64,000 nucleotides of DNA, from contig NZ_PYHR01000002.1 in the NCBI RefSeq assembly GCF_003121705.1, positions 3,782,001 through 3,846,000 of the forward strand, read 5' to 3'. The position numbers were made by a program, and so were the translations under genes. This document shows, piece by piece, positions 9,698 to 15,227 of the stretch; positions within the stretch are counted from its first letter, which is position 1; each line of letters begins with the position of its first letter. Source of the stretch: Serinibacter arcticus. GTDB lineage: Bacteria; Actinomycetota; Actinomycetes; Actinomycetales; Beutenbergiaceae. A model generated the notes under the pieces. The model made no database searches. It was not told the DNA's origin and was given only the letters and a program-made list of their open reading frames with translations.

Positions 9698-10279
9698 GTG
9701 ACCTCGCCCCAGACCCTGAGCGACGCCGACCGCCGCCTCCTCGCGGGGTGGGCGGCGGACTGTGCGACGCGCGTCCTTCCCCTCCTCGACGCGGACGCGT
9801 CCAGCCTCGCGCTGGTGCGCGACGCCGTCGCCCGGGCCCACGCCTACGGCCGCGGTGGGAGCACGGCGGCGGCAGAGATCCGGCAACGGATGGTCGCCGT
9901 CACGGCGGCCGGCGCCGCGACGACGCCCGCCGGCGCTGCCGCGGCCAGGGCCGCGGGCCAGGCCTCCGCCGTCGCCCATCTCGCGGCGCACGCCCTCGGG
10001 GCCGCCGCCTACGCCGCGAAGGCCGTCTCGCTCGCGCACCCGGACCGGCCCGAGGCCGTCGACGACGAGCTCCGGTGGCAGGTCGCCCACCTCACGCAGG
10101 AGCAGGCGGCGGCGCTGCGTCGGCTGCCGCTGCTGGAGTCGGTCCCGTCGGGGCCGCTCGGGCCGGGACTGCTGTCGCGCGGCGTCCTCGGGCGGGCGAT
10201 CCGCGAGATCCAGGCCCGCATCGGCGACGACGTCGACGGCGGTCGACCAGCCCCGGCACCCGCGGGACACCACCCGTGA
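9698..10279 (+). CDS. Imm5-like putative immunity protein (193 aa)
   Basis: From the GTG at 9698 the protein begins VTSPQTLSDADRRLLAGWAADCATRVLP, a helical Ala-rich protein with ARAHAYGRGGST, QASAVAHLAAHALGAAAYA and LRWQVAHLTQEQAAALR. The DADRRLLAGWAADCA start and the HLAAHALGAAAYA helix match the Imm5-like putative immunity family as I remember it. The ATG-type start at 9668 adds ten unconserved residues. It is divergent from the SMI1/KNR4 gene across a 68-bp gap. The last 20 residues are Pro-rich and probably disordered. Confidence 0.6.
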   Translation: MTSPQTLSDADRRLLAGWAADCATRVLPLLDADASSLALVRDAVARAHAYGRGGSTAAAEIRQRMVAVTAAGAATTPAGAAAARAAGQASAVAHLAAHALGAAAYAAKAVSLAHPDRPEAVDDELRWQVAHLTQEQAAALRRLPLLESVPSGPLGPGLLSRGVLGRAIREIQARIGDDVDGGRPAPAPAGHHP

Positions 10280-10310
10280 CAGGCAGGCCGCCGCACGGGA
10301 GTGTGGGCAC

Positions 10311-11453
10311 ATGGACCTCGCGATGCGCCCACCCCGGACCCTCTGCCTCATCCTGGCGGGCGGCCAGGGGTCCCGCCTCGGCGCGCTGACCGAGCACCGC
10401 GTCAAGCCGGCGCTGCGGGTGGCCGGCAGCTACCGCCTCATCGACACCGCCCTGTCGACGGTCGTCAACAGCGGTCTCGACGACGTCTGGATCGCCGAGC
10501 AGTACCTTCCCCACTCGCTCAACGACCACCTGGCCAACGGCGGCCCGTGGGACCTGGACCGCGTGAACGGCGGCCTGCGGATCCTGGCGCCGTTCGAGGG
10601 CGGTCCGGGGGAGGGGATGGCGCAGGGAAACAGCGACACCCTCTGGCGGCACCGCGAGCGCCTGGCGGAGTTCGACGCCGAGTGCATCGTCGTGCTCAGC
10701 GCCGACCACCTGTACACGCTCGACCTCCTCACCGTGCTGCAGACGCACGTGGCGAGCGACGCCGAGCTCACGCTGGTCACGACGCGCACCGACGAGGACC
10801 CCTCCAGCTACGGCGTCGTGCAGGTGGACGACGACGGCCGCGTCGCCTCCTACGACTACAAGCCCGAGGACCCGGCGGGGAACCTCGTGGCGGCGGAGGT
10901 CCTGTGCTTCGACGCGACGCTGCTCGTCGATGCGCTGGAGGAGCTGGCCGAGCGCGAGGGCGGTCTCGGCGACTACGGCGACGACCTCGTGCCGTGGTTC
11001 GTGGACCGGGGACGCACCGTCGAGCACCGGCTCGAGGGCTACTGGATGGACATGGGGACGCCGGAGACGTACTGGCGCGCCCACATGCACCTCGTCGACG
11101 GCGAGGGAGCCCGCTTCGACGATCCGCAGCATCCGATCCGCTCGGCGCAGCCGCAGCTGCCGCCCGCCCGGGTGGTCGACGGCGCCGTCGTGGTCGACTC
11201 GCTGCTGGCGGCCGGGTGCCAGGTGGCGGGGGAGGTGCGGCGCAGCGTGATCGGGCCGGGCGTCGTCGTCGAGGCCGGCGCGGTCGTGGAGGAGTCGGTG
11301 CTTCTCGACGACGTGCGCGTGGCCCCGGGCGTGCGCCTGCGGCGCTGCGTGGTCGACGACGGCGTGCAGCTCACCGAGCCGCGCGTCCACGGCGACGGGG
11401 TCGGGGTCACCGTCCTGGGGCCGGACGACGCTGCCGGCTCGGCCGTCAGCTGA
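10311..11453 (+). CDS. Glucose-1-phosphate adenylyltransferase-like nucleotidyltransferase
   Basis: 380 residues. The N-terminal nucleotide-binding motif LILAGGQGSRLGALTEHRVK is followed by GSYRLIDTALSTVVNSG, VLSADHLYTLD, YDYKPED and YWMDMGTPETYW. This is the catalytic domain layout of ADP-glucose pyrophosphorylase (GlgC), which makes ADP-glucose for glycogen or maltosyl-phosphate synthesis. A shortened left-handed beta-helix (SVIGPGVVVEAGAVVEESVL) forms the C-terminus. At 380 residues it is a little shorter than typical actinobacterial GlgC (about 405-415), and the usual KPAVPFGG motif reads KPALRVAG, so it may be a paralogue rather than the housekeeping GlgC. The ATG at 10311 has GGGAG upstream. 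It converges on the photolyase gene with only 9 bp between the stops. Confidence 0.75.
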   Translation: MDLAMRPPRTLCLILAGGQGSRLGALTEHRVKPALRVAGSYRLIDTALSTVVNSGLDDVWIAEQYLPHSLNDHLANGGPWDLDRVNGGLRILAPFEGGPGEGMAQGNSDTLWRHRERLAEFDAECIVVLSADHLYTLDLLTVLQTHVASDAELTLVTTRTDEDPSSYGVVQVDDDGRVASYDYKPEDPAGNLVAAEVLCFDATLLVDALEELAEREGGLGDYGDDLVPWFVDRGRTVEHRLEGYWMDMGTPETYWRAHMHLVDGEGARFDDPQHPIRSAQPQLPPARVVDGAVVVDSLLAAGCQVAGEVRRSVIGPGVVVEAGAVVEESVLLDDVRVAPGVRLRRCVVDDGVQLTEPRVHGDGVGVTVLGPDDAAGSAVS

Positions 11454-11462
11454 GGGCGCGCG

Positions 11463-13070
11463 TCACGAGCTCCGCACCAGCCGCGACCACTCGCCGTCGC
11501 CCTCCAGCAGGCGCCGCGCACGGCCCCGGTGGATCTGGCGCTTGCCCGGGTCCATCTTCTGCAGGAGCGAGACGATCATGCGCGCGCGGGGGTTGGACTC
11601 GAACACCTCGCGGTGGTCCTCGACGAACGTCCAGTACAGGCCGTCCCAGTCGGCACGCCACTCCCCGGCCGGGAGGTCGGACATCGTGCGCAGGTAGTTG
11701 CTCCCGGAGACGTAGGGCTTGGTGGTGATGTCGGCGCCGGCGGCGAACTGGCTCATCGCGTAGACGTTGGGCACCATCACCCAGTCGTAGGCGTCGATGA
11801 ACATCTCCATGAACCACTCGTAGACCTCGTCGGGGTGGATGCGCAGCAGCGCCATCGCGTTGCCCAGCACCATCAGGCGTTCGATGTGGTGCGCGTACCC
11901 GGTCGCCAGCACGCGGGAGACCACGACGTCGACGGGCTGCAGGCCCGTCGTCGCGTCCCACCACCCCTCGCCCAGCGCGCTGTCGTGCGCCAGGTGGTGG
12001 GAGGTGCGCAGCCGACGGCCCTGCGTCCGGTAGGTGGCCCGCATGTACTCCCGCCAGCCGATCACCTGGCGGACGAAGCCCTCGAGCGACGCCAGTGGAG
12101 TGTCGTCGTCGGCACCCTCGAACGCGGCGCGGAGCACCTCGTCGGGGCTCAGCAGGCCGATGTTCAGGGACGCCGTCAGCAGGCTGTGGGCGATGAAGGG
12201 GTGCTCGGTCGAGATCGCGTCCTCGTACGGCCCGAAGTCCGCCAGGCGCTCGCGGACGAACTCCGCCAGGTGCGCCTGCGCCTCGGCGTGGCTCGTGGGC
12301 CACGCGAACAGCTGCGGGTCACCGGGGGCGTCGGGGAACTCCGCCTCGACCCACGCGACCGCGTCCCGCACGTCGCTCTCGCCGTCGTTCTCGCCCGGCT
12401 GCCCGTCGGTGCCGCCGGCGTCGACGTCGAGGCCCGCGAGGTCGAGCGCCCCGTCCTCCGCCAGCACCGGGTGCCGGGCGAACCGCCCGACGACGGGTGG
12501 GGTGTACCCCCGCGGCAGCTTCTTGCGGTTGTCGGCGTCGAACGACCACTGCCCGCCGATCGGGCCGCCGTCGGAGTCCAGGAGAAGGTCCAGGCGGCGC
12601 CGCTGCCACACGTAGAAGTCGTGCATCCGCGCCGTCCGCCCGGTGAACCACCCGTCGATCTGGGACCGCGAGGTGAGGAAGTTGGGCGACTCGAGCTCGT
12701 CGTCGAGCGAGGTCTCGTAGCCACCGTCGGCCAGCGCGGCGCGCAGGTCCCGCTCCAGCCAGTCGTCCACGACGTCGAACCAGGTCACCTGACCGGGGCG
12801 GCGGTCCCGCACGAGGTCGGCGAGCTGGCTGCGGGAGGTGCGGTCGGCCTCGCTGCGCAGCACCACGACCTCGTGACCCTCGCCGCGCAGCAGCCGGGCG
12901 AACCGGGTCATGGACGCGCGGTGCAGCACCAGCTTGTGCGCGTGGAAGGAGTACTGGCGCACGAGCAGGTCGTGCTCGACGAGCACGATCACCGTACCGG
13001 CCGGAGCCGCGAGGTGCTCGGCGAAGAGCTGGTGCGGCAGGACGAGGCGCACCGGCGCTCCAGGGCTCAT
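11463..13070 (-). CDS. PhrB/FeS-BCP-family photolyase-cryptochrome homologue lacking all cysteines
   Basis: 535 residues matching the prokaryotic (6-4) photolyase / 'iron-sulfur bacterial cryptochrome and photolyase' family. It begins with an antenna-domain start (VRLVLPHQLFAEHL) and then has TWFDVVDDWLER, FYVWQRRRLDLLLD, GGQWSFDADNRKKLP, RQVIGWREYMRATY and HHIERLMVLGNAMALLRIHP. The C-terminal catalytic segment has MSQFAAGADITTKPYVSGSN and LYWTFVEDHR. In characterised members four cysteines hold a [4Fe-4S] cluster, three of them between the MS and LYW motifs. Here that segment is only about a dozen residues (DLPAGEWRADWDG) and the whole protein has no Cys, so no cluster can form. A TATCGT hexamer 6 nt before the ATG suggests a leaderless transcript. 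DNA repair versus light sensing is undecided. Confidence 0.85.
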   Translation of the reverse strand: MSPGAPVRLVLPHQLFAEHLAAPAGTVIVLVEHDLLVRQYSFHAHKLVLHRASMTRFARLLRGEGHEVVVLRSEADRTSRSQLADLVRDRRPGQVTWFDVVDDWLERDLRAALADGGYETSLDDELESPNFLTSRSQIDGWFTGRTARMHDFYVWQRRRLDLLLDSDGGPIGGQWSFDADNRKKLPRGYTPPVVGRFARHPVLAEDGALDLAGLDVDAGGTDGQPGENDGESDVRDAVAWVEAEFPDAPGDPQLFAWPTSHAEAQAHLAEFVRERLADFGPYEDAISTEHPFIAHSLLTASLNIGLLSPDEVLRAAFEGADDDTPLASLEGFVRQVIGWREYMRATYRTQGRRLRTSHHLAHDSALGEGWWDATTGLQPVDVVVSRVLATGYAHHIERLMVLGNAMALLRIHPDEVYEWFMEMFIDAYDWVMVPNVYAMSQFAAGADITTKPYVSGSNYLRTMSDLPAGEWRADWDGLYWTFVEDHREVFESNPRARMIVSLLQKMDPGKRQIHRGRARRLLEGDGEWSRLVRSS

Positions 13071-13328
13071 CGCCTCACGATAGGTGGTGCCCCACGGCGC
13101 AGGAGCCGCGAGTTACGGGCATGTGTCCTACCTCCGGCAGCGAGTATCTATTGGGTAACGATTGGTCTCCCTGGGCCATCCGGGGCAGTCGACGGCGGGT
13201 ACCTGTGGTTAGGCTCACAGCGTCCTAAGCAGGTCCCTGGGCGACTCACCCACAAGGCGAGGTCCCCGGTATGTCCGGAACCCCTTCCGGCCGTGCAGCC
13301 CCAGGGGCCCACCCACACTGGAGGAACA
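13071..13328. other. Divergent intergenic region between photolyase and peptide-importer operons
   Basis: This 258-bp stretch must hold the promoter of the minus-strand photolyase gene (TATCGT, reverse of 13077-13082) and that of the plus-strand importer operon. For the latter I see no convincing -35/-10 pair; TTGGTC-like and TTAGGCT-like hexamers occur but with poor spacing. The last 12 bp hold GGAGG for the TTG start at 13329. No riboswitch or small RNA is recognised. Confidence 0.4.
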
Positions 13329-15227
13329 TTGAGAATCCGGAGAATGACCGCGGGCATCGCCGTGGTCGCGGCGACCGCACTCGTGCTGAGCGCCTGCACC
13401 AGCAGCCCGTCGGAGGAGGAGACCACCTCGGCCGGTGACGACGAGACGTCGGAGACCACCGACCCGTCGAGCGAGCCCACCGAGACGTACGAGGGCACCG
13501 ACAAGCAGGACCTGGGCGACGTCACGACGGTGGACGACTCCATCTCCTACTCCCTCGGTGAGGACGAGTGGCTCGGGTACAACGGCAACACGCCGGAGAC
13601 CTACTCCACCTACAACTCCGTGGTGAACGAGCGCTTCCAGAGCGCCTTCACCTACTTCGGCACCGACGGCACCATCTACGTCAACGAGGAGTTCGGCAAC
13701 GTCGAGCTCGTCTCCGAGGACCCGATGACCGTCGAGTACACGATCAACGACGACGCGGTCTGGTCCGACGGCACGCCGATCACCTACGACGACGCCCTCT
13801 TCTCCTGGGCCACGCAGGCGATCGCCGACCCGGTGGCGACCGAGGCCGCCCGCGTCGAGGCCGAGGCTGCGGCCACGGCCGCCGGCGAGGACCCCGCCGC
13901 CGCGCGCGAGGCCGTCGGTGACGTCCCGCTGTTCAACTACGTCGGTGGTCTCGACCTCGGCAGCCGCACCTCGATCCCCGAGGGCGAGCCCGGTGGCAAG
14001 AGCTTCACGCTCAGCTACACCGACCCGTACCCGGACTACATGATCTCGACGATGATGCAGTTCCCGCTGCACGTCGCCCTGGACTCGGCCGGCATGACGG
14101 TCGAGGACTTCGTCGCCGCCGTCGAGGCCGAGGACGCCGAGGCCCTGCGCCCCGTCGCGGACTTCTACAACAACGACTGGCTCTCGCAGCCGGGTCAGCT
14201 GCCCGACGCGGCGATCGCCCTGAGCTCCGGCCCGTACCTGGCCCCGACCTCGTGGGAGGCCGGCCAGAGCATCACGATGGAGGCGAACCCCGACTGGTGG
14301 GGCACGCCGCCCGCCACGAGCACCCTCGTCTACCGCTTCGCGGCTCCCGAGACCCAGGTCCAGGCCCTGCAGAACGGTGACCTCAACATCATCGAGCCGC
14401 AGGCCACGGTCGACACGGTCTCGCAGATCGAGGCCATCGGCGACTCCGTGTCCCTGCTGACCGGTCCGTCGCTGACGTGGGAGCACCTCGACTTCAACTT
14501 CAACAACGGGCCGTTCGCCACGAGCCTCCCGCTGCGCGAGGCCTTCGCCATGTGCGTGCCGCGCCAGCAGATCATCGACAACCTCATCGCGCCGATCGAC
14601 CCCGAGGCGCAGGTCATGAACGCCCGTGAGGTCTTCCCGTTCCAGCCCAACTACGAGACCGTCCTCGAGGGCTCCTACGACGGCCGCTACGACGAGGTCG
14701 ACCTCGAGGGTGCCGAGGCGAAGATCGCCGAGTCCGGCGTCGCCGGGCCCATCACGGTCCGCATCGGCTACTCCGCCCCGAACCAGCGTCGTACCGACCA
14801 GGTCGCCCTGATCAAGGACAGCTGCGACCAGGCAGGCTTCGACGTCCAGGACGTCGGCAACGCCGACTTCTTCGACCAGACGCTGCCCAACGGTGACTAC
14901 GAGGTCGCGCTCTTCGCGTGGGCCGGCTCCGGCCAGATCACCTCGGGTCAGAACATCTACTCCAGCACCGGTGGTCAGAACTACGGCGGCTTCTCCAACG
15001 CCGACGTCGACGCCGCCTGGGACACCCTGAGCGCCACGCTCGACACGGATGTCCAGCTCGAGCAGACGATCATCATCGAGAAGGCCCTGTGGGACGAGCT
15101 GTACGGGATCCCGCTGTTCGCCCACCCGGGCGTCGTGGCCTTCGACTCGTCGATCCAGAACGTCCGTGACACTGCCACGCAGAGCACGGTCGCCTGGAAC
15201 GCCGAGCAGTGGCTCCGCAGCAGCTGA
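13329..15227 (+). CDS. Peptide/nickel-type ABC transporter substrate-binding lipoprotein
   Basis: 632 residues of solute-binding protein family 5. The start is taken as TTG at 13329 because GGAGG sits 5 nt upstream; the ATG at 13344 has no such site. A lipoprotein signal ends with LVLSAC (Cys23), followed by an acidic Ser/Thr/Glu linker (about residues 25-60) typical of Gram-positive anchored binding proteins. Family blocks are AVWSDGTPITYDDALFSW, SSGPYLAPTSW, PDWWGTPP and NGDLNIIEPQA. It delivers oligopeptides or a similar ligand to the permeases encoded next. A perfect 18-bp hairpin follows the stop, before the permease gene, and probably lifts the level of this subunit above the rest. Confidence 0.9.
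   Translation: MRIRRMTAGIAVVAATALVLSACTSSPSEEETTSAGDDETSETTDPSSEPTETYEGTDKQDLGDVTTVDDSISYSLGEDEWLGYNGNTPETYSTYNSVVNERFQSAFTYFGTDGTIYVNEEFGNVELVSEDPMTVEYTINDDAVWSDGTPITYDDALFSWATQAIADPVATEAARVEAEAAATAAGEDPAAAREAVGDVPLFNYVGGLDLGSRTSIPEGEPGGKSFTLSYTDPYPDYMISTMMQFPLHVALDSAGMTVEDFVAAVEAEDAEALRPVADFYNNDWLSQPGQLPDAAIALSSGPYLAPTSWEAGQSITMEANPDWWGTPPATSTLVYRFAAPETQVQALQNGDLNIIEPQATVDTVSQIEAIGDSVSLLTGPSLTWEHLDFNFNNGPFATSLPLREAFAMCVPRQQIIDNLIAPIDPEAQVMNAREVFPFQPNYETVLEGSYDGRYDEVDLEGAEAKIAESGVAGPITVRIGYSAPNQRRTDQVALIKDSCDQAGFDVQDVGNADFFDQTLPNGDYEVALFAWAGSGQITSGQNIYSSTGGQNYGGFSNADVDAAWDTLSATLDTDVQLEQTIIIEKALWDELYGIPLFAHPGVVAFDSSIQNVRDTATQSTVAWNAEQWLRSS

Follow-up and report, generated by a model that had tools for sequence, protein, structure and literature searches.

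A prokaryotic (6-4) photolyase-type gene without [4Fe-4S] ligand cysteines in Serinibacter arcticus

The photolyase gene and its surroundings

The window, by which we mean the whole stretch of 64,000 nucleotides that was analysed, covers positions 3782001-3846000 of contig C2 in the genome of Serinibacter arcticus (4.06 Mb, two contigs). It holds one gene of the PF04244 family, which is also the only copy of the family in the genome. Papers are cited by PMC number. The features are:

9762..11453 (+): ORF with a GlgC-type nucleotidyltransferase match (PF00483 at residues 196-444), convergent with the photolyase gene and outside the system
11463..13070 (-): gene of prokaryotic (6-4) photolyase type whose 535-residue product contains no cysteine and presumably no cluster
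11634..11681 (-): residues 464-479, the shortened loop, where Trp471, Trp475 and Asp476 stand at the site of PhrB Cys438, Cys441 and Cys454 (alignment and predicted structure)
11883..11891 (-): His394, His395 and Ile396; His395 corresponds to PhrB His366, required for (6-4) repair according to mutant data (PMC4619345)
11934..11936 (-): Pro379, replacing the cluster ligand Cys350 (alignment to 4dja; Pro in 103/103 type-A rows, see below)
12471..13049 (-): N-terminal DPRP (PF04244) antenna-binding domain, residues 8-200 (Pfam match)
13278..15227 (+): binding protein of an oligopeptide ABC transporter (PF00496; read in frame over this stretch), transcribed away from the photolyase gene and likewise outside the system

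The photolyase frame is intact and runs on the minus strand from an ATG at 13070 to a stop ending at 11463. Its product scores 162.4 bits against the Pfam cut-off of 22.1 for PF04244 and has a weak Pfam match to the photolyase FAD-binding domain. PF00875 (DNA_photolyase), the N-terminal domain of class I CPD photolyases, gave no match at E 0.1, and the NCBIfam class I CPD equivalog reached at best 19.2, far below its cut-off of 884.6. The closest named relative, among the best 80 of 298 listed, is from Serinibacter arcticus and has 75% identity. The structure of the protein was predicted with a pLDDT of 92.4 and a pTM of 0.93, and the ten best solved matches of the model are without exception prokaryotic (6-4) photolyases, with Z 40.5-42.9 and an rmsd of 2.0-2.3 across 478-490 residues. 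Among other photolyases the top Z is 26.2, class I and class II enzymes lying at this value or lower, and Foldseek likewise ranks the prokaryotic (6-4) family first. The protein is a prokaryotic (6-4) photolyase in the wide sense. A preliminary description had seen here a 535-residue homologue of PhrB without any cysteine, and this is borne out by the ORF translation, by PF04244 and by the solved-structure matches; the alignment and the model also agree with its view that the rest of the fold and the catalytic blocks are conserved.

The family search of the window neighbours showed no regulatory partner beside the gene. Elsewhere the host genome carries a gene for a class I photolyase, which is split over two frames (L162 496-2867, and L189 at about 953779-955133 of host contig C2). 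The N-terminal frame stops exactly where the gene of another genome of the genus, G002, reads on, and the G002 gene is whole; a genuine frameshift and an error of sequencing are both conceivable as the cause of the split.

Ligand sites, active site and antenna pocket

Homologues were gathered from genomes, named genome contigs, plasmids and viral contigs. A first set of 151 rows contained 63 with all four cluster cysteines and 88 with none at the ligand columns. In a larger set of 181 rows all four are found in 74 and the full set in none of the other 105 full-length rows. The 107 rows outside the cluster type consist of two partial frames (L005 and L185), which were left out of the residue counts, two rows of a second type called B (L202 and L203), which were counted separately, and 103 rows of type A, to which the window protein belongs. 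L206 and L207, being repeats of L169 and L180, were kept out of the set. The 103 type-A rows represent 97 distinct sequences at 97% identity, and several loci come from the same organism. A lone cysteine at the fourth ligand column occurs in one full-length row, L167.

When the protein is aligned to PhrB (4dja), Cys350 is replaced by Pro379, Cys438 by Pro467 and Cys454 by Ala473, and Cys441 falls inside a deletion of 10 residues. The stretch from MSD to LYW has 12 residues in the window protein versus 22 in PhrB. The earlier account of the missing ligands, with a cysteine loop between MS and LYW cut to about a dozen residues, was therefore exact. None of the four [4Fe-4S] ligands which define the FeS-BCP subtype is found at its column (Pro, Pro, gap, Ala), which on these residues places the protein outside that subtype, and since the ligands are absent the cluster itself is presumably absent as well. 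That the loss is neither chance nor a sequencing error is clear from the proline at Cys350, present in every type-A row, and from the same 12-residue loop, present in 98/103. The complete lack of cysteines is less of a distinction: 24 of the 103 rows have no cysteine at all, and the other 79 have 1-9, nearly all at non-ligand positions.

The position of the former cluster loop is occupied in the type-A rows by a conserved WxxxWD motif. Trp471 is present in 103/103 and Trp475 in 102/103 type-A rows, and Asp476 in 88/88 cluster-free rows of the first set; the 74 cluster rows most often have D and F at the two tryptophan columns. In the model a helix (470-485) starts within the shortened loop, so Trp471 and Trp475 stand one turn apart (i, i+4), and the confidence is high here, with a pLDDT of 94 for residues 461-470 and 97 for residues 471-480. 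The predicted geometry suggests that the two tryptophans occupy or cap the place where the cluster would sit. The type-B proteins keep a longer loop and have WW and Ser where the ligands would be.

The residues expected at the lesion and the flavin are largely kept. All 103 type-A rows have the equivalents of PhrB His365, His366, Leu370, Trp390, Met410, Tyr424, Tyr430, Asp179 and Asp254, and Trp342 is kept in 99/103. We take Asp179 and Asp254 to be the Mg-site pair. His366, Tyr424 and Tyr430 correspond to His395, Tyr453 and Tyr459 of the window protein. In PhrB repair is lost in the H366N mutant and reduced in Y430F, and the Y424F mutant no longer binds the lesion (PMC4619345). Other positions differ from PhrB: Tyr391 is Phe in all 103 rows (Phe420 in the window protein), Tyr395 is Phe in 98/103 (Phe424), and Glu403, near N5 of the FAD, is Met in all 103 (Met432). 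These changes agree with the published description of subgroups other than A, B and G (PMC9178010). The Tyr460 equivalent is present in 100/103 type-A rows. This is at odds with a statement that Tyr460 occurs in 93% of 464 homologues and that the remaining 7% also lack the Fe-S cysteines (PMC4619345, 2015); the mismatch may reflect a different alignment.

For the antenna the lumazine-pocket sites were taken from PMC9178010. The FeS-BCP set (Leu8, Gly9, Asp10, Glu33, Lys47, Met55) is not complete in the window protein, which retains Leu11, Glu32, Lys46 and Met54 and has Pro12 for Gly9 (Pro in 101/103 type-A rows) and His13 for Asp10 (His in 99/103). In addition Glu37 of PhrB is replaced by Leu36. 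Lumazine synthase (PF00885, RibH) gave no match in the host genome, with 14/14 control genomes positive, and none in the three genomes of the genus (the host, G001 and G002); the CofG part of FO synthase gave no match in the host genome either. Neither DMRL nor 8-HDF thus appears to be home-made in the host, each route having been probed with one family, so that a diverged gene could be missed. Three other type-A genomes (G013, G046 and G268) do have lumazine synthase. The lack of a PF00885 match in the three genomes also raises the possibility of riboflavin auxotrophy.

Distribution and descent of the cluster-free type

The frequency of the cluster-free type was estimated in two samples of 396 genomes each. 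In the phylum sample 50 genomes have a family match, and of the 48 loci fetched 46 are of the cluster type and two are cluster-free, the window gene and G268. In the order sample 74 genomes have a match, 22 with type A and two with type B; the remaining 50 have 35-45% identity to the query, and all 19 of these which were inspected have the four cysteines. None of the 24 cluster-free genomes of the order sample shows a second copy of the family, the extra pieces being parts of the same gene. The 80 named contigs were picked by similarity, as the top 80 among 298 relatives, and are for that reason uninformative on frequency.

Named actinomycete members of type A belong to Micrococcales, Propionibacteriales and Mycobacteriales, and beyond Actinomycetota the type includes two Persicobacter plasmids (Bacteroidota) and one IMG/VR contig (L133). 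Type B, the second cluster-free type, is from the same order and is known from two genomes, G702 (L202) and G599 (L203). The viral contigs gave two loci, L133 without the ligand cysteines and L134 with them; the phage collection gave no match at E 1e-5. The L133 relative (504-2183) lies on an AT-rich contig and adjoins genes which match phage helicase-loader and exonuclease families; it is possibly phage-borne.

A separate observation concerns DUF2256 (PF10013), a 40-residue domain of unknown function which on two plasmids is encoded next to a photolyase gene of the cluster type (L156 763-894, L158 2511-2678) and directly adjoins the photolyase gene in both type-B genomes. Among 80 selected genomes it occurs in 23/43 of the cluster type, the 43 being part of roughly 97 such genomes with the unfetched ones typed by identity to the query, in 8/23 of type A, in 2/2 of type B and in 1/12 without a family match. 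The domain tracks the family rather than the cluster, and the idea that it is a helper of the cluster was dropped.

The family tree proposed in the preliminary description, with the cysteine state marked, puts the cluster-free rows on one side of one branch. A tree of 14 cluster-free and 47 cluster rows, made without the ligand columns, needs one change of state, with support 100/100 and in 200/200 bootstrap trees. With type B included (17 cluster-free and 41 cluster rows) one change is again needed, with support 100/99, and types A and B are adjacent. The cysteine state has thus switched once in these data. On trees without an outgroup gain and loss are indistinguishable. When two class I photolyases are used as outgroup the cluster-free rows nest inside the cluster rows, which weakly suggests loss of the cluster rather than gain; the result is given little weight, since the outgroup sits on a branch of more than 9 changes per column, in a tree that still contains the ligand columns.

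Interpretation and comparison with known systems

In 2011 the cluster cysteines were said to be completely conserved (PMC3204975). The preliminary description allowed for a cluster-less clade already in the literature, and in this respect novelty does not stand: such members are in print (PMC4619345, PMC9178010, PMC12082625) and the branch is not new. Among 110 sequences in seven subgroups all except subgroup M carry the four cysteines, and M has 20 members from multiple lineages, including PromaPL of Prochlorococcus (PMC9178010, 2022). Most picocyanobacterial Phr2 proteins are without the cluster cysteines (PMC9426592), and several orthologs without them are mentioned elsewhere (PMC12082625). 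Our search of open-access papers found none on the actinomycete branch as such, and no recognised member of it for which repair had been assayed. In the proteome of Nesterenkonia sp. Act20 a "6-4 photolyase" is confined to the samples taken after UV and during photorecovery, and TC64 was repaired better in the light, a difference which is not statistically significant (PMC8965627); the Act20 homologue is our type-A row L048, and the proteomic protein is presumably the product of the same gene. The phr1 gene of Curtobacterium aetherium, expressed in E. coli, improved survival only when a CPD photolyase was present too (PMC12029717), and may be a functional test of the cluster-free branch.

The reading which we consider quite probable, judging from the sequence and the model, is that the window protein is an FAD-dependent (6-4) photolyase of a cluster-free branch in which the cluster site has been rebuilt as packed protein. 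The (6-4) photoproduct would bind in the usual pocket, light-excited FADH- would donate an electron to the lesion and His395 would supply the proton. The [4Fe-4S] cluster, in PhrB a stabiliser of the C-terminal domain, would be absent, and its site would be closed by Pro379, by the loop that is 10 residues shorter and by the start of a helix with Trp471 and Trp475. The Act20 proteome counts in favour of this reading. Counting against it are the fruitless search for a repair assay on the actinomycete branch, the CPD activity suggested for picocyanobacterial Phr2 (PMC9426592) and the non-significant TC64 difference in Act20. Moreover, Cys-to-Ser mutants of PhrB are insoluble (PMC4619345), which means that these enzymes do not easily do without the cluster, and the antenna pocket is altered (His13, Leu36) in a host whose genome has no RibH or CofG match. 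A more far-reaching version, which we offer tentatively and hold to be doubtful, is that a specific protein module, made up of Pro379 and the WxxxWD at the helix start, took the place of the cluster in a single event and assumed its structural role, in enzymes whose antenna changed too. The enzyme of this genus may then use a scavenged flavin or no antenna, and type A (loop cut) and type B (loop kept, cysteines gone) would be two outcomes or two stages.

The preliminary description left the choice between a cluster-free branch and a different role. The branch is supported by the single change of state on the tree; a different role is without positive support because every tested lesion-site residue is invariant. 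One rival reading is a cryptochrome, a blue-light receptor with the fold kept and repair lost, acting as a regulator. CryB, a close solved relative, has regulatory roles (PMC9178010), and the altered antenna pocket can be counted in favour. Going by the title of a study, however, CryB is also a (6-4) photolyase. The His that donates the proton, the pair of lesion-site Tyr and the two Mg-site Asp are invariant in 103/103 rows, and the adjacent genes code for a GlgC-type protein and for part of a peptide transporter, not for a regulator. We regard this reading as unlikely. We give no better chance to a CPD photolyase whose lesion was switched when the cluster was lost. CPD activity has been suggested as a possibility for the cluster-less picocyanobacterial Phr2 (PMC9426592), and another CPD enzyme could be useful to a host in whose assembly the class I photolyase occupies two separate frames; yet the equivalents of His366, Leu370, Met410, Tyr424 and Tyr430 are all kept, G002 of the same genus has a whole class I photolyase as well as the cluster-free gene, and PromaPL, of the same cluster-less kind, is called a 6-4 photolyase (PMC9178010). 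The genome has at least one other gene with an apparent frameshift, that of the class I enzyme, which could make one suspect that a broken gene or a sequencing artefact removed the cysteine loop. This is refuted by the 103 type-A rows, where the same substitutions and loop length recur across many genera, and with an intact ORF and a confident structure model we see practically no room for it.

As a discovery the case is modest because cluster-less members have been published; it offers a natural comparison and not a new kind of enzyme. What is added here is the wide actinomycete distribution of the cluster-free branch, the two type-B genomes and a host without lumazine synthase or CofG matches. 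The function of the [4Fe-4S] cluster has been called yet unknown (PMC12082625). Since loss of a ligand makes PhrB insoluble, a natural cluster-free branch is a means to separate a structural from a redox role of the cluster, and the actinomycete members, with the type-B pair which keeps part of the loop, provide cultured organisms or short genes for such a test.

Among named systems the window protein agrees with subgroup M, as a prokaryotic (6-4) photolyase without the four cysteines; it was compared with PromaPL by description, and the cysteines are absent in both. With a Met near N5 of the FAD (Met432) and no intact Tyr chain it also resembles the subgroups outside A, B and G (PMC9178010). 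The full-length fold is common to three FeS-BCP proteins, PhrB of Agrobacterium (4dja), CryB of Rhodobacter (3zxs) and the Caulobacter (6-4) photolyase (9hnk). With these the window protein also shares the lesion pocket, the catalytic His, the Asp pair of the presumed Mg site and the Trp342/Trp390 pair, whereas it has no [4Fe-4S] ligands, a loop 10 residues shorter, Phe420 and Phe424 for Tyr391 and Tyr395, Met432 for Glu403 and His13 for Asp10. SePhrB of Synechococcus elongatus (8ijy) gives the highest Z, 42.9, tied with the next rows, and has the Met near N5 in common with the window protein; SePhrB has the cluster and an 8-HDF antenna, whereas the host of the window protein has no CofG match.
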